Below, one piece after another: positions 25,178 to 34,312 of a stretch of DNA of 64,000 nucleotides. Made by a program: the position numbers and the translations under genes. Within the stretch, counting starts at the first letter, position 1. Each line of letters begins with the position of its first letter. The DNA is from a virus. The stretch covers positions 113,838-177,837 of the IMG/VR virus record IMGVR_UViG_3300045974_000283, one strand, 5' to 3'. The notes under the pieces are model-generated. The model made no database searches and was not told the DNA's origin. It saw only the letters and a program-made list of their open reading frames with translations.

Positions 25178-26092
25178 ATGACCAAGAACGCACTGAAGAC
25201 CGTCGCTCAGCCGATCCCCTTCCCGCCCCACATGGAACAAGCGGCCTTCTGGATTCGGGAGCGGGAGAGCATCCGCCAGAAGAAGGACTCCGGCCTGCCG
25301 CCTCCGTGGACTCAAGATCCAATGATGGCGGGGACGAGATGGTGCAACGTGAGGCGGATGGACGATAAGGTCAGCAAGTGGCTTCTCGATCACTTCTACG
25401 TCAAGAACCTTCCGCCAGCTCAGATGGCCGTCGGCGCGGCACTGGCTCGCCTCATCAATCGTCCTGAGACACTCATCCGCATGTGTCCCTCAGGTTATCA
25501 AGGCTTCGACAACGCCCGGTTCCGCAAGGTGCTCCGAGCCATGAAGGCTGCGAAGGAGCAGATCTTCACCGGCGTCTACATCATCAACGGTGCGCAAGCC
25601 AACGGCCGCGACAAGTGGGAGCTCGTGCTCGACAACCTCGACGGGATGCGCCGCGCTCTCAAAGACAAGGACCTCGATCTGTCGTCCATGTCCGCAGTCC
25701 ACACAAAGCTGATGGAGACCAAGGGTCTGGGCTCTTTCTTGGCAGGTCAAGTCGTTGCTGACCTGCGACACGTTCTGCCTCAAGGTCAATGGCTCGACCG
25801 CAACACTTGGGCTCCCGTCGGTCCCGGTTCCACGAAGGGCCTCAACTACGTGTTCAACACACCCGGTGAGCGCACGACGCAAGCTCGCTTCAACGAGCTT
25901 CTCCCGATCTATGTCAAGGCGGTTAATAAGATGCCCGGCATCGCTGCCATCGCCCGCGAACGGAAGCTCGAAGCGCATGACTACCAAAATACGCTATGTG
26001 AAATTTCCAAGTGGGCGCGCCTGCGTGAAGGCGGACGTTCGAAGAACAAGTATCAAGCGAAGCCGCCCGGTGAACAGCTGACCCTTCTGTGA
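25178..26092 (+). CDS. Alpha-glutamyl/putrescinyl-thymine pyrophosphorylase-like protein
   Basis: I chose ATG 25178 after CACTCAAC; upstream residues in the frame are shadow. Of the family signature I see FWIRERESIRQKK (24-36), PWTQDP (43-48), CNVRRMDDKVSKW (56-68), and the C-terminal LCEISKWARLREG. This helical, glycosylase-like family replaces the pyrophosphate on 5-hydroxymethyluracil in DNA with an amine or similar group to make hypermodified thymines. The usual partner, a 5-hmdU DNA kinase, is not found in this window. It heads a run of modification-like genes. Family membership is well supported; the nucleophile is unknown. Confidence 0.78.
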   Translation: MTKNALKTVAQPIPFPPHMEQAAFWIRERESIRQKKDSGLPPPWTQDPMMAGTRWCNVRRMDDKVSKWLLDHFYVKNLPPAQMAVGAALARLINRPETLIRMCPSGYQGFDNARFRKVLRAMKAAKEQIFTGVYIINGAQANGRDKWELVLDNLDGMRRALKDKDLDLSSMSAVHTKLMETKGLGSFLAGQVVADLRHVLPQGQWLDRNTWAPVGPGSTKGLNYVFNTPGERTTQARFNELLPIYVKAVNKMPGIAAIARERKLEAHDYQNTLCEISKWARLREGGRSKNKYQAKPPGEQLTLL

Positions 26093-26098
26093 GGCATC

Positions 26099-26950
26099 AT
26101 GAGTGAACTAGCCATCTACATCCCGAGTCGGAGCCGCTTCGAGAAGTCCCTTACCTTGAAATACTTGACTCCGAACTGGGACAAGGGACCGATCTATCTC
26201 GTGGTGCCCGCTGAGCAGCGCAAGGACTATCGGTTTCTCGCCAAACAATACGGCGTGACCATCCTGCCGTGCTCGGAGTCTGGCATCGCCTTGACGCGTC
26301 TGTTCTGCGGTGAACACGCCACGGACAAGTTCATCATGTTCGATGACGACCTCCGCTTCTCCTACCGACCCAAGCGGAACAAGGAGACGGGCATCGACCA
26401 GACGGGCAAGAACGCTCAAGGACTAAGGCTTTACAAGGCCGAAGGCAGCCAGATCACGCGAATGCTGACCATCGCTGAGACGCTGCTCGACAGATACGCT
26501 CACATCGGGGTCTCGCCTCGCGCGGGCAACCAATCGATGCCTCTGCCGATACGCGAGTGCGCTCGCCCGCTACGCGTCCTTGGCTACCGCAAGCGAGAGT
26601 TCCTCTCATGTGAACACGGCCGCGTCGCGATCATGGAAGATTTTGATGTCACACTTCAGTTGTTGACGCGTGGCTACAAGAACGCCTTGATCACGACGCA
26701 TGTGAACGATCAGCTCGCGACGAACACGGAAGGAGGCTGCTCCGATTATCGCACCGAGAAACTTCACAACACGAATGTCAAGAAGATGCACTCCCTGTGG
26801 GGAGTGCCGATCACCAAGATCGTCGAGAAGAAGAACGTCAGTGCAGCGGCCTTGGCAGCGGGTCTCGCCGCCCGCAAAGAGCTGAACATCCAATGGATCA
26901 AAGCCTGGAAATCCTCCGGCAAAGACCTCAAACCCAGACTATCACGGTGA
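26099..26950 (+). CDS. TET-associated-type DNA-base glycosyltransferase-like protein
   Basis: This 283-aa protein has a GT-A-like start IYIPSRSR (6-13), a second strand IYLVVP (32-37) and an acidic metal/nucleotide-sugar motif MFDDDLRF with DDD at 82-84. This pattern matches the TAGT glycosyltransferases found beside TET/JBP or other base-modifying enzymes in phages, which are thought to add sugars to hydroxymethylated bases. It follows the pyrophosphorylase-like gene by 6 bp. It could instead be a generic GT-A enzyme acting on cell-surface sugars; the neighbourhood favours DNA. Confidence 0.65.
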   Translation: MSELAIYIPSRSRFEKSLTLKYLTPNWDKGPIYLVVPAEQRKDYRFLAKQYGVTILPCSESGIALTRLFCGEHATDKFIMFDDDLRFSYRPKRNKETGIDQTGKNAQGLRLYKAEGSQITRMLTIAETLLDRYAHIGVSPRAGNQSMPLPIRECARPLRVLGYRKREFLSCEHGRVAIMEDFDVTLQLLTRGYKNALITTHVNDQLATNTEGGCSDYRTEKLHNTNVKKMHSLWGVPITKIVEKKNVSAAALAAGLAARKELNIQWIKAWKSSGKDLKPRLSR

Positions 26951-26953
26951 CCC

Positions 26954-27940
26954 ATGGACATCTATCCTGTTGACCCTCCTTTCAGCCTTCAAGTCGAGCC
27001 CACTGAGGGCTGCTCGTTGGCTTGCTCATTCTGCGGCATCGCTTCTATCCGCGACAATGGAGCCAACGCCAACGAGGGCGTCCACGGCAAGAACTCCGCT
27101 CCCTACAAGCACATGGAGCGGGCCACCCTGATCCGACTGATGAAAGAAGTGAAGCGGCTCAAGTGGAATCCCCGCATCGAGTTCGCGATGCACGGTGAGC
27201 CTTCGATGCACCCTGACCTTCCTGGACTGGTCTCGGCGACCCGGAAGATTCTCGGCAATTCAGCTCACATCATGATCACCAGCAATGGCTCAGGTCTGAC
27301 CACGCCTGAGAAGATCAACGCGTTGATAGCGGCTGGCCCGAACACGCTGGCGCTGGACGACTACAAGCACGCCAAGTTCATGCCGAAGATCAAGGAGTTC
27401 GTGCGGACTCTTGGTCACACTGTGTTCGACTATCCGGCTGACAAGGAAGGCAACCCGCACCATCGCAACAAGGGCAGTCGCATCGTCCTGATCAACGACA
27501 TCAGTGAGAACACCGACGGCAACCATCAACTGACGAACCAAGGCGGAAGCTCGTTCGATGCTTTGACCGAGCCGCTCGTGCGTCGCTGCGCCAAGCCGTT
27601 CCGCGAGCTGTCTGTGCGCTGGGACGGCAATGTCGCCATCTGCTGTGACGATTGGGTCGGAGCCTACAAGATCGGCAACACGAACGAGCTGCCGCTCGAC
27701 GAAATCTGGCTGCACCCGCGTTTCGAGGCGGCTCGCCGTCGCCTGTACGCCAAGGACCGCGACTTCGGCCCGTGCAAGGGCTGCAACGTGAAGACCATGC
27801 GCGACGGCCTGCTCCCCGACAAGATGGGGAAGGGCGAGATGAAGGGCGTCTCTCCGGCCAGCGAGGCGCACCTGCGAGCGGCTCTGCGCGGTCGCATCTT
27901 CTCGATCAAGGAAGTCAAGGAAGTCAAGAGCGTCGCATGA
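26954..27940 (+). CDS. Radical SAM enzyme with SPASM/twitch-like C-terminus
   Basis: The cluster-binding motif is C20-x3-C24-x2-C27 in EGCSLACSFCG. AMHGEPSMHPD matches the GGEP region and ITSNGSGL the following strand. The C-terminus has RRCAKPFRELSVRWDGNVA, ICCDDW, GNTNELPLDEIW and GPCKGCN, the pattern of an auxiliary-cluster domain. It would use S-adenosylmethionine to start radical chemistry. Between sugar-transferase genes beside a thymine-modification enzyme, it is a candidate for tailoring the base or sugar. It overlaps the next gene by 4 bp. The substrate is unknown. Confidence 0.85.
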   Translation: MDIYPVDPPFSLQVEPTEGCSLACSFCGIASIRDNGANANEGVHGKNSAPYKHMERATLIRLMKEVKRLKWNPRIEFAMHGEPSMHPDLPGLVSATRKILGNSAHIMITSNGSGLTTPEKINALIAAGPNTLALDDYKHAKFMPKIKEFVRTLGHTVFDYPADKEGNPHHRNKGSRIVLINDISENTDGNHQLTNQGGSSFDALTEPLVRRCAKPFRELSVRWDGNVAICCDDWVGAYKIGNTNELPLDEIWLHPRFEAARRRLYAKDRDFGPCKGCNVKTMRDGLLPDKMGKGEMKGVSPASEAHLRAALRGRIFSIKEVKEVKSVA

Positions 27941-29157
27941 AAACAGTCCTCGTCCTCGACCTGCTCTACTACGATGTTCATCCGACCGTCCACAAGAACG
28001 GTGTCACGCCCACCGCTCTTGAGGAGGCCTCCGTTCTGGCAGCGCACGGGTATCGGGTGATCTTCGGGTGCGCTGGCTCCAACTTGAACCGGCTGAAGAA
28101 AGCGTATCCTGAGGTCGAGTTCGTCAACCTGTTCCCGCAGACCTATGCCAGCATGCTCGATGACGACAAGCACACGGTTGAGAGTTCTGGCTTCTCTCCG
28201 ACGGTGGCAGCTAAGATCAAAGAGATCGTCATCAACGAGAAGATCTGGGTCATCTCGTGCTCGTCGATGCGTCAGCTGCTCAAGCATCTGGAGAAAGTAG
28301 ACCTACCGTGCCCTGTCGTGTACACGATGCACTTCTGGCCTCAGCCAAATCTGATGTTCCACGCGAGCACGGTCGGTGGTCTGCTGGCGATCCGTGAGAA
28401 CCCCAAGTTCTACATCTGTGCCAACACCGAGTTCACGATGGAGCAGCACCTTGAGCAGTCGCGGCTTGCTCACGCGAAGGGCTTGATTCGTGGTTCCGCT
28501 CTCGCGGCCTACGATCGCTTTGAGGGCAACTACTCGGACAGCTTCTGGAGACGCATGACCTGTAGCGACTCGGTGCCGGACATCCCAGTCTGCAACGTAC
28601 CCTCCGGTCGCCTCATAGTTGCCAGTCGCACCCACAAGGCCAAGAACCCTGTCTTCTGCTCGGCAAGTCCCCTGATCGACTTCCACCTTCTGGTCTATGA
28701 GAACCCAGACAAGGACGCTCAAGCCATCCTGGACAAGATGGCGTCGGTGGGTGCCAGCGTGCAACGCAACACCCCTCAGGTCAAGCTCTACAAGCTGATG
28801 GCGCGCAGCTCAGGGGTCGTGGTCTCATGCACGTTCGAGACCTTCGCTCGTACATCTTTCGAAGCGGCCTGCTCGGGCGTCCCTAGTCTGGTGTTCGTGG
28901 ACAAGACAGGCAAACACGCCGTCCATTCCTGGAGCCAGCAAGCGGGCGTTCAGTTCGACTCGTTCCGTTTCGCCGACCTGAAAGACCGCAAGAACCGATT
29001 CAAGGCAGCGGTCGAGCATGTCGCCACAGGCTGGTCGTATGAGGAACGGCTGGAGCTCAAGCGGAGAGTTCGCAGCTACTTCAGCGCCAAGAACTTCGTG
29101 GCCGAGCGTACCTCTGCGTTCAAGGCGGCATGGTCCAAAATGAAAGCGTCCTCATGA
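27937..29157 (+). CDS. GT4-like glycosyltransferase 1 (GT-B fold)
   Basis: I chose ATG 27937, in an ATGA overlap with the radical SAM stop. It has a Rossmann-like N-terminus (MKTVLVLDLLYYDVHPT), a short GNT-like linker and a second lobe with LLVYEN, then KLMARSSGVVVSC and ETFARTSFEAACSGVPSL. The last matches the E-x7-E donor-binding motif of GT4 enzymes. The donor sugar and acceptor are not shown. It is overlapped by the next glycosyltransferase gene, so the two are co-translated and may extend one glycan. Confidence 0.78.
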   Translation: MKTVLVLDLLYYDVHPTVHKNGVTPTALEEASVLAAHGYRVIFGCAGSNLNRLKKAYPEVEFVNLFPQTYASMLDDDKHTVESSGFSPTVAAKIKEIVINEKIWVISCSSMRQLLKHLEKVDLPCPVVYTMHFWPQPNLMFHASTVGGLLAIRENPKFYICANTEFTMEQHLEQSRLAHAKGLIRGSALAAYDRFEGNYSDSFWRRMTCSDSVPDIPVCNVPSGRLIVASRTHKAKNPVFCSASPLIDFHLLVYENPDKDAQAILDKMASVGASVQRNTPQVKLYKLMARSSGVVVSCTFETFARTSFEAACSGVPSLVFVDKTGKHAVHSWSQQAGVQFDSFRFADLKDRKNRFKAAVEHVATGWSYEERLELKRRVRSYFSAKNFVAERTSAFKAAWSKMKASS

Positions 29158-30170
29158 TCAACATCCTTCACTGTTCGCCGTGGCCCATAGGCGGCGCAAC
29201 GTCGTACACAGTTCACCTCGCATCTGTCTTCGAGAAGACAGGTGTCCCTCACCGGATCATCCGCTTGGCAAAGAAGACTGAGCGCAAGTCCCGTGAGATG
29301 GGTTCCTACGGGGTTTCTTATGTCAACACCTCCGTCGAGGACGCGGCCAAGCTGGACGGCAAGTTCCTGCTCGCATCAGCGCCAACGGATGAAGACATGG
29401 GGCTGGCCTGCGCCAAGCTAGTCGAGCGTTCCCGTGGTGCCTACGTCTTCCACGATCCCAACGAGTTCGGCATGTACCCTCATTGGGACGCCAGAAAGCG
29501 ATGGGGCTCTCGGTGCCGGGCAAGCGTCATCTGCATCCGCGAGCAGGGTCGTGTTCATATCCCCGAGGGCGTGTTCATTCCCCACCCATACGTCCGCACC
29601 TTCTCCAAGAAGACTCACAACGATGCCAAGACCAAGACGGCTGTCAGCGTCGCGCGGGTGAGCGGTGTCAAGAAAGCCCACTGGATCATCGAAGCGAACC
29701 AGACCCTACACGAAGCCGCCCGCGTTGACCTACGCGGAGAGGTCAATCGCATGTGGTGGAAGTTCACCATCGAGAAGAAGTTCCCCGGCATCCAACTGCC
29801 TGAGAACGCTGGCTTTCCCCGCATCATGGGTGCCGCTGCTGAGATCTGCAAACCCTATCAGCTGATGGTCGATCTGACCATCTTCAAAGAGGACGGCGGC
29901 GGAACTCAGTACGCGATGCTCGAAGCCATCGACGCGGGCGCTGTTCCCGTGATGACCAAGGAATGGTGCTCGTATCCGGGCAAGGCCAGTGACCTCGTGA
30001 TCCAGATCACCGACACGGATGGCCTGAAACGCCTCTTGAAGTCCTCACGGAAAGGCGTGCTCATGAGCGACATCGACGGCCTTCGCCAGTCGAACTACGA
30101 GTATCTCGATTCCGTCCACTCACCCAAAGCGGTCAGCCGCGCCTACGTCTCAGCCCTGGAGTCTGCATGA
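29154..30170 (+). CDS. GT4-like glycosyltransferase 2 (GT-B fold)
   Basis: I chose ATG 29154 in an ATGA overlap over an in-frame ATG 24 bp upstream. ILHCSPWPIGGATSYT resembles the N-terminal GGxxxY glycine motif of GT4 enzymes, and the second lobe carries KEDGGGTQYAMLEAIDAGAVPV, matching the donor site including E-x-I-x-A-G-xPV. The protein is 338 aa, slightly short. Together with gene 27937 it forms a glycosyltransferase pair. The substrate is unknown. Confidence 0.75.
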   Translation: MINILHCSPWPIGGATSYTVHLASVFEKTGVPHRIIRLAKKTERKSREMGSYGVSYVNTSVEDAAKLDGKFLLASAPTDEDMGLACAKLVERSRGAYVFHDPNEFGMYPHWDARKRWGSRCRASVICIREQGRVHIPEGVFIPHPYVRTFSKKTHNDAKTKTAVSVARVSGVKKAHWIIEANQTLHEAARVDLRGEVNRMWWKFTIEKKFPGIQLPENAGFPRIMGAAAEICKPYQLMVDLTIFKEDGGGTQYAMLEAIDAGAVPVMTKEWCSYPGKASDLVIQITDTDGLKRLLKSSRKGVLMSDIDGLRQSNYEYLDSVHSPKAVSRAYVSALESA

Positions 30171-30793
30171 AAGTTCTCGTCACGGGAAACCCCCGAAGTG
30201 GCACCCTGTCCCTCAGTCTGACGCTGCGCAAAGCCGGACTCGATGTCGGCCACGAGCGCATGGGCAAGGACGGTACGGTGTCGTGCTTCTTCTTCAAGCA
30301 AGTCGAATACTACCCCCGGGAAGGTGGAACCGAGAACCGTCACCTGACCGACGGCAAGGATGACAACTTCGATGAAGCCGAGTTCGACTTCGCTTACCAT
30401 CTGGTGCGCAATCCGCTCAAGTGCATCCCATCTATGCAGAAGATCGTCAACCGTCGCCACCGACAGTGGATACGGGACATCGGCATCTGCGAGTGGGACC
30501 CCAAGAACCAGTCGAACATAGAGTGGTGCGCCTTGGCGTGGTATCACACGAATCTGTACATCGAGCAGAACCTGAACTTCCCTCGGCTGCGGGTGGAGAC
30601 CCTCTTGAAAGACTGGCCCAATGAACTGTGCCCGCGTCCAACCGAGATCAAACACTCGCACAAGAGCTCGGGCTTTCGCAAAGCTGCACCGATCACTCCG
30701 GCTCAGCTCACGGATATATCGGGAGCGGCCCTTTCCAAATCCATCCTCGACATGGCGCGCCGCTACGGCTACGCCAAGTCCGACCTTCAGTAG
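30167..30793 (+). CDS. Sulfotransferase-like P-loop protein
   Basis: It begins MKVLVTGNPRSGTLSLSL. GNPRSGT at 7-13 matches the 5'-phosphosulfate-binding loop (PRSGT) of sulfotransferases rather than the GKS/T loop of kinases. YHLVRNPLKCIPS matches the RxP 3'-phosphate-binding region. At 208 aa it is small. It ends the overlapping run. In this setting it could sulfate a sugar or modified base. An alternative is a diverged P-loop kinase replacing the missing 5-hmdU kinase. Confidence 0.68.
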   Translation: MKVLVTGNPRSGTLSLSLTLRKAGLDVGHERMGKDGTVSCFFFKQVEYYPREGGTENRHLTDGKDDNFDEAEFDFAYHLVRNPLKCIPSMQKIVNRRHRQWIRDIGICEWDPKNQSNIEWCALAWYHTNLYIEQNLNFPRLRVETLLKDWPNELCPRPTEIKHSHKSSGFRKAAPITPAQLTDISGAALSKSILDMARRYGYAKSDLQ

Positions 30794-31611: not shown

Positions 31612-31937
31612 CTGATGCTGTCCAACCCCCAGAAGAAACCAAGCCGCCTCTGACCGAGTTTCAACGCGGCGCTCGGGCGATGTTCGACTACTTCCATATC
31701 CGGGCGGCGAACAACTGGCATGGCAACCCGAAGGTCCAGGAGCAGTGCGCCAAGGAAAACACCCTGCTCCTGAGCTGGGTTGAGGACGCCCTTGAGAGTG
31801 TGGATCCCGCCATCCACGCCGAGTGGAAAACTCTCCAGGAAGCCACCAAGAGCGCCTATCACCAAGGGTATCTCGACGCCTTGGCAACGAAACAGTCCCA
31901 CAATGCTCCACCGACAACAAAGGCGTCCGTCGTATGA
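31608..31937 (+). CDS. Unknown helical protein (109 aa)
   Basis: ATG 31608 lies in an ATGA overlap. The protein is helical with Trp and Tyr in the middle (FDYFHIRAANNWHG) and a Thr/Pro-rich end. No motif is recognised. It overlaps the following gene by 4 bp. Confidence 0.58.
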   Translation: MTDAVQPPEETKPPLTEFQRGARAMFDYFHIRAANNWHGNPKVQEQCAKENTLLLSWVEDALESVDPAIHAEWKTLQEATKSAYHQGYLDALATKQSHNAPPTTKASVV

Positions 31938-32383
31938 CCCCGCACAAACAACTCAACCTCCACAAGCCGCTTGAAGGCCAGATCGGCGACTGCTTCCGCA
32001 CGGTCATTGCCTGCTTGCTCGACCTGCACCCTTCGGACGTACCTCACTTCTACCAAGAGGTCTGGCACGAGCCCGATGCTGCTCAGACTGCTGAACGCGA
32101 ACTTCGCAAGTTCTTGCGGCACTATGACCTGGACTTCATCGAGGTTGCCTACAAGGACACCTTGCTGAACGTCATGGAAGCGCAAGCGATCATGAACCCC
32201 GGCATCTACTACCTGCTGACAGGAAACTCAGCGAACGGCGTCGGTCACGTGGTCATCTGCTGCGGAGACCAGATCGTCCACGACCCGGCCATTGACAATT
32301 CCGGTATCGTTGGCCCTTCCGACACCGGGAACTATCACATCACGTGGCTCGTGCCAAGTCTCATGCGCCGCCTTGCCTGTTAA
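31934..32383 (+). CDS. Papain-like/C39-like cysteine-peptidase-fold protein (149 aa)
   Basis: The sequence has GDCFRTVIACLL (candidate nucleophile Cys), NGVGHVVICC (candidate His) and VHDPAID (candidate Asp), the order of a papain-like C39-type triad. Small phage proteins with this layout are widespread and mostly uncharacterised. Its TAA stop lies inside the GTTAATG motif preceding the next gene. It could cleave a protein or be an inactive binder. Confidence 0.62.
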   Translation: MTPHKQLNLHKPLEGQIGDCFRTVIACLLDLHPSDVPHFYQEVWHEPDAAQTAERELRKFLRHYDLDFIEVAYKDTLLNVMEAQAIMNPGIYYLLTGNSANGVGHVVICCGDQIVHDPAIDNSGIVGPSDTGNYHITWLVPSLMRRLAC

Positions 32384-32420: not shown

Positions 32421-33620
32421 ATGAACAAACCGACCCCGGTCACCGATCTCAACGGCGCGATCACGCTCGCAGCCACAAGCCCGGACAGCCATCTGTTCCG
32501 GCTGCTCTACCTTCTCCAGTCCGAACAGTATCACGGCGTCGTGGCCCAGACCGAGAGCCGCAACGGCCCCGTCCTGCGCTTCACGGTGCCTGTCATCACT
32601 TCGTGGATTTGCCCCGATCAGCGCGTGAGCTTCTGGGACAAGCGCGATGCCAATCCATTCTTCCACTACATGGAAGCGATCTGGATGTTGGCGGGCCGCG
32701 ACGACGTTGCCTTCCCGTCCTACTTTGCCAAGCAGATCAAGCAATTCTCCGACGACGGTGAGACCTTGAACGGTGCCTACGGCTATCGCTGGCGCAACTT
32801 CTTCGACAACGGCAACTTCGATCAACTCGAAGACGCCATCGCTCAGCTCAAGGCGAATCCCTCGTCGCGTCGCGTCATCCTGCAGATGTGGCACGCGGTC
32901 GCTGATCCGCAGAGCGCCGCTGAGGGCTCGAAGGACGTCCCCTGCAATATCTCGGTGATGTTCGATGCCGTCAACGGCAAGCTGAACATGACCGTCGTCT
33001 GCCGCTCCAACGACATCATCTGGGGTGCCACGGGCGCGAACGTGGTCCACTTCTCGATTCTGCACGAGTACGTCTCGGCGGCTGCGGGCCTGCGCGCTGG
33101 CACCTATCATCAGGTGAGCAACAACCTTCACGTCTACACCGAGTTCCCGGTCTCGAAGCCGCTGCTGGAAGCCACGGACGATCCGACACCGGAAGAACTG
33201 CGCGGTGACTATCCGGGCGAGGCGCTCGACCTGTACGCGGCGCGTGAGAACGGTCTTTTCCCGATGCCGCTGTTCCGTTCGAACGAAGTGGTCGATGCCG
33301 ACGAGTTCGATGATGTCCTGCTGGATACAGACTTCCTGGACGCGATTCGGGAAGAGTTCGACGAGGATAGTGTTTCGCGTCAGCAGAACATCCAAGCGTA
33401 CATTGACGCCTTGAAGGAAATGGCGATTACCGGAGCTGGATGGCGGCAACACGCCAACGTGATGCAGGCTGCTTTCATCATGCACCGCGAGCTTGGTCAA
33501 ACCTCTGAGGCCATCGAGTACCTCAAGGAAGCCAACATCGGCCCCGACTGGAAGCTCGCATGTGTCAACTGGCTCCAACGCCGTCTGGACGCCGCCAAGG
33601 CAAAGGAGATCGCAGCATGA
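32421..33620 (+). CDS. Thymidylate-synthase homologue, probable dUMP hydroxymethylase
   Basis: The 399-aa protein shows TS-family signatures: SRRVILQMW, DVPCNISVMF with the catalytic Cys at 175, CRSNDIIWGATGAN and NNLHVYTEF. With one extra residue, Asn207 aligns with the TS Asn that selects uracil (Asp in dCMP hydroxymethylases), pointing to dUMP. The Cys context is PCN rather than PCH, and the last ~110 residues after the TS core are unusual. Alternatives are a true TS or a dCMP hydroxymethylase. It overlaps the YfbR-like gene. Confidence 0.72.
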   Translation: MNKPTPVTDLNGAITLAATSPDSHLFRLLYLLQSEQYHGVVAQTESRNGPVLRFTVPVITSWICPDQRVSFWDKRDANPFFHYMEAIWMLAGRDDVAFPSYFAKQIKQFSDDGETLNGAYGYRWRNFFDNGNFDQLEDAIAQLKANPSSRRVILQMWHAVADPQSAAEGSKDVPCNISVMFDAVNGKLNMTVVCRSNDIIWGATGANVVHFSILHEYVSAAAGLRAGTYHQVSNNLHVYTEFPVSKPLLEATDDPTPEELRGDYPGEALDLYAARENGLFPMPLFRSNEVVDADEFDDVLLDTDFLDAIREEFDEDSVSRQQNIQAYIDALKEMAITGAGWRQHANVMQAAFIMHRELGQTSEAIEYLKEANIGPDWKLACVNWLQRRLDAAKAKEIAA

Positions 33621-34312
33621 AAGACCGCTTGATTGGCTTGGGTCTCCCGCACGACCCCGAGTTCGCCGCTCGGGTTCAGTCATTCACGGCTGTCCACGCT
33701 CATGTTCGTGGCTGCGCGACCAAGCGCTACCACACTGAGCCCACGCTGCAGAACGAGACGGTCGGCGCTCACGTCGGCTTCATGGTCGGTGCGGCCTTCA
33801 TCATCTACGACACGCCTTCGCTGGCGCTACTCAAGGCCATCAGCCTGCACGATCACATGGAAGCCATCACTGGCGACATGCCCGCGCCGATGAAGGTCCG
33901 GAGGCCCGAGCTGAAAGCCATCATCGACGAACTGGAGATGGAGTTCCACGGCGAGTCGAAGCTGCCCGGCTGGCCCATGCTTGACGCGCACGAAGAACGG
34001 CAACTGAAGGTCTTGGACCGCCTGTCAGGAGTCGCCTGCGCCTCGCAAGAACTTCGCATGGGCAACTGGAGCGTCCACCACGTTCTGGGTGCCTTCTGCG
34101 GTTACTTCGCGACGCTGAAGCCCGAATGGAAGGAGCTCTACTTCTTCGAGGGTCTTCTGGACACCGCACCGAATCGCAACCGGGCTGTCCCCGACGACAC
34201 AAAGCGTCTGTTCGAGGCGATGGTCAAGAGCGTCCGTGAGGCGGCGTCTCCCAAATACCGCACGAACCCCAAGCCGGACGGCATGTCTTCCCTCGGTCCA
34301 ATCGCGAGCTGA
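33617..34312 (+). CDS. HD-domain 5'-deoxynucleotidase (YfbR-like)
   Basis: I chose ATG 33617 (ATGA overlap). The motif order is ETVGAHVGFMV, then SLHDHMEAITGDMPAPMK, close to the HDxxExxTGDxPxPxK of YfbR. H...HD...D would hold the metal. YfbR removes the 5'-phosphate of dNMPs. Next to a dUMP-modifying enzyme it could deplete dTMP or other dNMPs so that the modified nucleotide dominates. The protein is 231 aa, slightly longer than YfbR. Specificity is not visible. Confidence 0.8.
   Translation: MKDRLIGLGLPHDPEFAARVQSFTAVHAHVRGCATKRYHTEPTLQNETVGAHVGFMVGAAFIIYDTPSLALLKAISLHDHMEAITGDMPAPMKVRRPELKAIIDELEMEFHGESKLPGWPMLDAHEERQLKVLDRLSGVACASQELRMGNWSVHHVLGAFCGYFATLKPEWKELYFFEGLLDTAPNRNRAVPDDTKRLFEAMVKSVREAASPKYRTNPKPDGMSSLGPIAS

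Follow-up and report, generated by a model that had tools for sequence, protein, structure and literature searches.

The final 64 kb of the 177,837-bp IMG/VR virus record IMGVR_UViG_3300045974_000283 (positions 113,838 to 177,837, all 64,000 nucleotides of which are here called the window) carries a gene cluster that, as predicted from the genes alone, is fairly likely to be an operon for a glycosylated thymine: hydroxymethyldeoxyuridine (hmdU) would be glycosylated, and the sugar oxidised by a radical enzyme and possibly sulfated. This cluster places the window in the glycosyltransferase branch of hydroxymethyluracil (hmU) modification. An earlier, sequence-only reading had proposed a DNA hypermodification operon of six adjacent genes (25178-30793), the last four joined by 4-bp overlaps, and the six open reading frames were confirmed in that order and on the same strand, with overlaps at 27937-27940, 29154-29157 and 30167-30170. 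The cluster is larger than that span, continuing 3' of the six genes with a pyrimidine hydroxymethylase of the thymidylate synthase (TS) type and a YfbR-like nucleotidase (32421-34312), both of which belong to the same modification system. Nor is the gene set, unfamiliar to that reading as one pathway, a one-off: dozens of independent viral contigs share it, so that the combination is more than chance, and its core, found in uncultured viruses, is absent from the known thymine-modifying phages. The genes are:

25178-26092, + strand: HEL, PF18723/phrog_2396, 304 aa, helical, lacking a P-loop, a probable hmdU-recognising DNA protein (Pfam 2.6e-42, PHROG 4e-52)
26099-26950, + strand: TET-associated glycosyltransferase (TAGT), PF20691, GT-A type, with the DDD motif at 82-84 intact (Pfam 4.5e-15, phrog_842 7.5e-36)
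26954-27940, + strand: radical S-adenosylmethionine (SAM)/SPASM enzyme, BtrN-like (Pfam; BtrN is the best match in PDB)
27937-29157, + strand: GT_A, a probable GT4-like glycosyltransferase, an orphan (TIGR02472 glycosyltransferase domain, 0.0013; E-x7-E; no Pfam match alone)
29154-30170, + strand: GT_B, a GT-B-type glycosyltransferase that recurs beside the radical SAM gene, alternative start at 29130 (family-based; no Pfam match alone)
30167-30793, + strand: probable sulfotransferase dependent on 3'-phosphoadenosine 5'-phosphosulfate (PAPS) (PRSGT and R81-x7-S89; Pfam sulfotransferase match sub-threshold, 0.03)
32421-33620, + strand: TS-family pyrimidine hydroxymethylase, a probable dUMP hydroxymethylase (phrog_5131 6e-100; catalytic C175 intact)
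33617-34312, + strand: HD-domain YfbR-like 5'-deoxynucleotidase (PF12917 2e-7, phrog_6047 7e-22)

The partners of HEL change from virus to virus. Our neighbourhood scans depend on conserved peptides and retain the best 80 loci, and many of the viral records in them are fragments. In a HEL-seeded scan of viral contigs not selected for partner type, the distinct loci had a kinase (28), a glycosyltransferase (24) or neither (15), and none had both (p=3.7e-8), the kinase calls being based on similarity to M6 gp54 and ViI 061; record-wide searches agree with this exclusivity. In a phylogeny of 100 HEL proteins, supported branches account for at least 7 changes of partner and the best tree for 11, every one of them exclusive. 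The HEL proteins of two kinase-HEL-TS-HD loci (L128, L136) are 90-91% identical to that of a TAGT-TAGT-HEL-TS locus (L109), and the TS proteins 81%, while a TAGT-radical SAM-HEL-TS-HD locus (L042) has a HEL 79% identical to those of L128 and L136. M6 gp55 is sister to the glycosyltransferase-type HEL of L024 (52% identity). That near-identical HELs are paired with either a kinase or a glycosyltransferase makes the partner question directly testable.

HEL residues R29, R60, D63, R91, F187, D195, D207, GPG215-217, C274, E275 and K278 are invariant, also in M6 gp55 and PhiW-14 gp72. Because they stay invariant while the partner swaps between kinase and glycosyltransferase, HEL would act on what is common to both, hmU in DNA, and we infer that it is a base-recognising adaptor, though it might itself be catalytic. 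The likely role of this shared protein thus changes. The AlphaFold2 (AF2) model (predicted local distance difference test, pLDDT, 90) has the base-flipping DNA glycosylases AlkA/OGG1 as its top, though weak, fold matches, and a PDB search with the HEL profile gave no match. This gene had earlier been taken for a 'pyrophosphorylase' adding an amine to activated hmU. HEL belongs to PF18723 by profile and by its invariant residues; the present Pfam name of the family is '5-hmdU DNA kinase, helical domain', and the amine-adding family is PF18724 (M6 gp51), so that this assignment is not supported.

Several HEL loci, mostly with TS, have no kinase or known glycosyltransferase nearby (L068, L070, L071, L079, L083, L091, L098, L108, L111, L113, L121); these possibly represent a third partner type. 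One contig carries a tandem pair of HEL genes adjoining TAGT and radical SAM genes (L026:7480-9212). The cultured Brevibacterium phage LuckyBarnes, which has TS-TAGT-TAGT-HEL and no kinase (L145:4610-8625), offers a ready-made model of that branch in which HEL is paired with glycosyltransferases.

The hmdU kinase PF18748 was not detected in the 177.8-kb record and 33 sister records in a search in which M6 and ViI were positive. The amino acid:DNA transferase PF18724 was likewise not detected in these records, with M6 positive (2e-48); the 177.8-kb record holds only a sub-threshold 42-residue match to it (E 0.01) on the other strand. M6 gp51-gp54 had no match in the window, the record pieces or the radical SAM loci. 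The sulfotransferase-like protein (30167-30793) was considered as the missing kinase and rejected, since its loop has no P-loop lysine and sulfotransferase motifs are present. The M6, ViI and Bhz59 records (L063:5686-6249, L065:8204-8866, L149:6249-6986) mislabel their hmdU DNA kinases (PF18748/phrog_800) as 'terminase small subunit', and PHROG phrog_800 bears the same misleading name.

The radical SAM enzyme, like the TAGT, keeps the label given by the sequence-only reading, with Pfam profiles and motifs in agreement. Its CxxxCxxC motif (C20, C24, C27) and auxiliary-cluster cysteines (212, 230/231, 274, 277) show little or no variation among 40 sequences and suffice for one auxiliary cluster. 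A profile search of PDB found BtrN of butirosin biosynthesis (5e-27), and a single-sequence search matched BtrN only. This closest solved structure by sequence resembles the viral enzyme in its auxiliary-cluster cysteines and C-terminal domain, whereas its substrate is a free aminocyclitol. BtrN carries out a two-electron oxidation of an aminocyclitol alcohol (PMC9012708), and the viral enzyme may oxidise a ring alcohol in the same two-electron manner.

The first scan seeded with this enzyme gave 55 viral loci, most with HEL, TAGT and/or GT_B, and TS adjoining, often together with the HD protein and DNA polymerase; a glycosyltransferase lay within 6 kb in all 34 distinct loci with 5 kb flanks on both sides. 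A second, profile-based scan, which overlaps the first, found a glycosyltransferase in 37/38 full-flank loci, TS or TET in 36/38 and a kinase in none. In eight loci of this census TET/JBP takes the place of TS, and HEL is then absent. A search of 84,980 prokaryote genomes yielded a single relative, which lies beside TET. These neighbourhood counts and this single relative mark it as an enzyme of phage DNA modification that goes with glycosyltransferases, and essentially a phage family. Because it stays with the glycosyltransferase even in loci from which HEL and TS are missing, a sugar hydroxyl is its likeliest target. Loci that combine it and a glycosyltransferase with TET/JBP, without HEL, include L003, L004, L020, L029, L050, L051 and L269, the last from a cultured strain, Actinomadura rayongensis. 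A duplicated rSAM-TAGT-TAGT-rSAM arrangement (rSAM, radical SAM) is present at L040/L041:7410-10978, with no TS, TET or HEL nearby.

Among the glycosyltransferases, the TAGT scores 56.6 bits against a PF20691 cut-off of 27.5, and its D82-D84 are invariant in 31 sequences. PDB searches with the TAGT and GT_B profiles gave no match. GT_B has a family of 14 members in sister loci with an invariant DGGG-Q-Y-EA-AG pattern, two of which match Glyco_trans_1_2 (PF13524), so that the glycosyltransferase identity of GT_B is supported through its family. For GT_A there is a weak GT4-domain match (TIGR02472, 0.0013) and an E-x7-E motif (ETFARTSFE); no GT_A relatives were found in viral contigs or phages, and hhalign gave no match between GT_A and GT_B. 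Since either TAGT or GT_B can be the sole glycosyltransferase of a locus, one appears to suffice; the three of the window would be predicted to make an oligosaccharide or branched sugar.

The best PDB match of the TS-family protein is CMP 5-hydroxymethylase, above every TS, and its family is common to the hmdU phages M6 (gp58) and ViI; it is a probable dUMP hydroxymethylase. The HD protein gene overlaps it by 4 bp, and members of its family occupy an equivalent position in 21 sources, with M6 gp59 likewise placed; the nucleotidase probably depletes the dTMP pool. Tet_JBP had no match in the whole record in a search with no positive control matching. Directly upstream of the hydroxymethylase, at 31934-32383, lies a gene for a 149-aa protein that begins MTPHKQLNLHKPLEGQIGDCFRT and has no Pfam match.

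The product of the sixth gene is probably a PAPS-dependent sulfotransferase, as judged from its motifs: PRSGT corresponds to the 5' phosphosulfate loop and R81-x7-S89 to the 3' phosphate site, and G12, R81, P83 and S89 are invariant in 19 viral sequences collected by pattern search. The best PDB match of the family profile is the sulfotransferase 5x2b (0.005), and the AF2 model (pLDDT 78) has SULT2A1 as its top Foldseek match (prob 0.38). These relatives (L150-L188) form a widespread family of small sulfotransferase-like viral proteins with the pattern PR[ST]GT...DVGHE..G.DG, of which Pfam models reach 3/19 members. Radical SAM modules at L003, L024, L034, L043-L046 and L049 contain members of a second sulfotransferase-like family, which has R-x7-S and either RRSG[GS]H or RRSGN. 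The two families have only the R-x7-S spacing in common, and homology is not claimed, an alignment having misplaced the loop. The odds of sulfation are raised because two sulfotransferase-like families occur in the same neighbourhood.

Taken together, these families suggest the following route. By homology to M6/ViI, the TS-family enzyme would form hm-dUMP and the HD nucleotidase would remove dTMP, so that hmdU enters DNA. HEL, whose partner swap is observed, may recognise or flip out hmU in DNA, serving as a shared platform that works with a P-loop kinase in other phages and with glycosyltransferases here. TAGT, GT_B and probably GT_A would attach a monosaccharide or an oligosaccharide chain to the hydroxymethyl group, the BtrN-like enzyme would oxidise or epimerise a sugar hydroxyl and, as the weakest step, the sulfotransferase may use host PAPS to sulfate a sugar hydroxyl. 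The route would install neither an amino acid nor an amine, and it probably benefits the phage by letting its DNA evade host nucleases. The earlier prediction of a hypermodified thymine thus keeps its hmU start and its sugar-bearing, perhaps sulfated product and loses the amine addition. This would be a second, widespread branch of thymine modification on the same platform, using glycosyltransferases and probably a sugar-acting radical enzyme. The complete scheme, a DNA base with a glycosyltransferase-built, radical-oxidised and sulfated sugar chain, and HEL as a base-presenting adaptor pairing with different transferases, is put forward tentatively, as a possibility.

Some observations weigh against this glycosylation scheme. 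The fold matches of HEL (E 0.08) and of the sixth protein (E 0.06) are weak, and 15 HEL loci have neither partner nearby. No homologue of GT_A (27937-29157) or of the sixth protein occurs in sister loci; both are counted as members on the basis of operon overlap, and relatives of the sixth protein sit away from these DNA-modification families. Moreover, a highly diverged kinase could escape the search, and the record, which is linear, may not be complete. The absence of those homologues, with the other contexts of the sixth protein's relatives, fits a division in which only TS, HEL, TAGT, GT_B and the radical SAM enzyme act on DNA, while GT_A and the sixth protein work elsewhere, for example on a host or virion glycan. 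We regard such a division as unlikely, given the 4-bp overlaps within the operon and the recurrence of the second sulfotransferase-like family beside TAGT-radical SAM in sister loci. It is likewise unlikely that the radical SAM enzyme modifies the base or hydroxymethyl carbon in place of the sugar. HEL is near this enzyme in most loci, and in M6-type pathways groups linked to thymine are acted on by radical SAM enzymes; however, its link to glycosyltransferases is stricter than its link to HEL (a glycosyltransferase without HEL is seen in the TET loci and in several others), many HEL+TAGT loci lack it, and the BtrN substrate is a cyclitol alcohol.

In a pathway of the M6/ViI type, HEL would activate hmdU with pyrophosphate or phosphate, an amino acid or amine would be attached and isomerised by the radical SAM enzyme, and sugars would come later. 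M6 has homologues of HEL, TS and HD (gp55, gp58 and gp59, respectively) and also encodes a radical SAM protein, gp53. This amine pathway was nevertheless rejected, and we hold it to be quite improbable, because the kinase and transferase are undetected in the record and its 33 sisters though detected in M6; gp51-gp54 lack matches and kinase and glycosyltransferase contexts are exclusive. The sequence-only reading had also proposed comparing neighbours across phage genomes, with placement of the glycosyltransferases in surface-polysaccharide clusters as the outcome that would overturn it. Such clusters, or receptor-modifying ones, commonly hold several glycosyltransferases and a sulfotransferase. 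Across viral contigs the TAGT, GT-B and radical SAM families instead adjoin hydroxymethylase or TET, HEL, HD nucleotidase and DNA polymerase, steadily and in unrelated phages, and the sole radical SAM relative in prokaryote genomes lies beside TET; the neighbourhood contradicts a surface role, which we consider extremely improbable.

Work on thymine hypermodification in phages has mainly elucidated groups derived from amino acids, and we know of no sulfate ester on a DNA base in nature. The closest known system is that of M6/ViI (5-NedU, 5-(2-aminoethyl)deoxyuridine, and 5-NeOmdU, 5-(2-aminoethoxy)methyldeoxyuridine), which has in the same order a TS-type hydroxymethylase, HEL (gp55), HD (gp59) and DNA polymerase. 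M6 encodes an hmdU kinase (PF18748), an amino acid:DNA transferase (PF18724), a pyridoxal phosphate (PLP)-type enzyme and a different radical SAM protein (gp53), the roles of gp51-gp55 being presumed largely from Pfam names, whereas in the window record neither a P-loop hmdU kinase nor an amino acid:DNA transferase nor a PLP enzyme is detectable, and glycosyltransferases and a BtrN-like enzyme are present instead. The 5hmdU-derived bases of M6, ViI and PhiW-14 arise via the hmdU kinase (PMC6449724). The T2/T6 TAGT is of the same family (PF20691) as that of the window, in which the DDD motif is intact, but adds a second glucose onto glucosyl-hydroxymethylcytosine (PMC13216743), whereas the window TAGT accompanies a probable dUMP hydroxymethylase; solitary TAGTs, found in 288/753 genomes, have been flagged as likely novel transferases (PMC13216743).

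Yersinia phage YerA41 carries an oligosaccharide of ~1 kDa on thymidine (PMC9023294), the kind of outcome predicted for the window, and encodes both a thymidylate synthase and a 5'-deoxynucleotidase (PMC7354516), while the portions of the YerA41 reports available to us mention no radical SAM enzyme, HEL or sulfotransferase. Bacillus phage SP-15 also has a sugar-bearing hypermodified thymine, a glucosylated, phosphoglucuronolactone-bearing dihydroxypentyluracil (PMC5977210), but its gene set consists of Thy1-type synthases and a teichuronic-acid-like cluster. Phage TET/JBP systems with glycosyltransferases (PF12851) share the radical SAM and glycosyltransferase module, whereas the window uses the TS route. 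No description of the HEL-glycosyltransferase-radical SAM branch or of a sulfated DNA base was found in the literature, the main subscription papers lying outside the search and an earlier partial mention (e.g. Iyer 2013) being possible.

Among 50,697 phage records there was no DNA-level match to the window and no relative of its radical SAM enzyme or GT_B, and TAGT had four relatives only, all distant (E 1e-3). The window also encodes a family A DNA polymerase, a clamp loader, SbcCD-like proteins, a RecA-like protein and a 5'-3' exonuclease.

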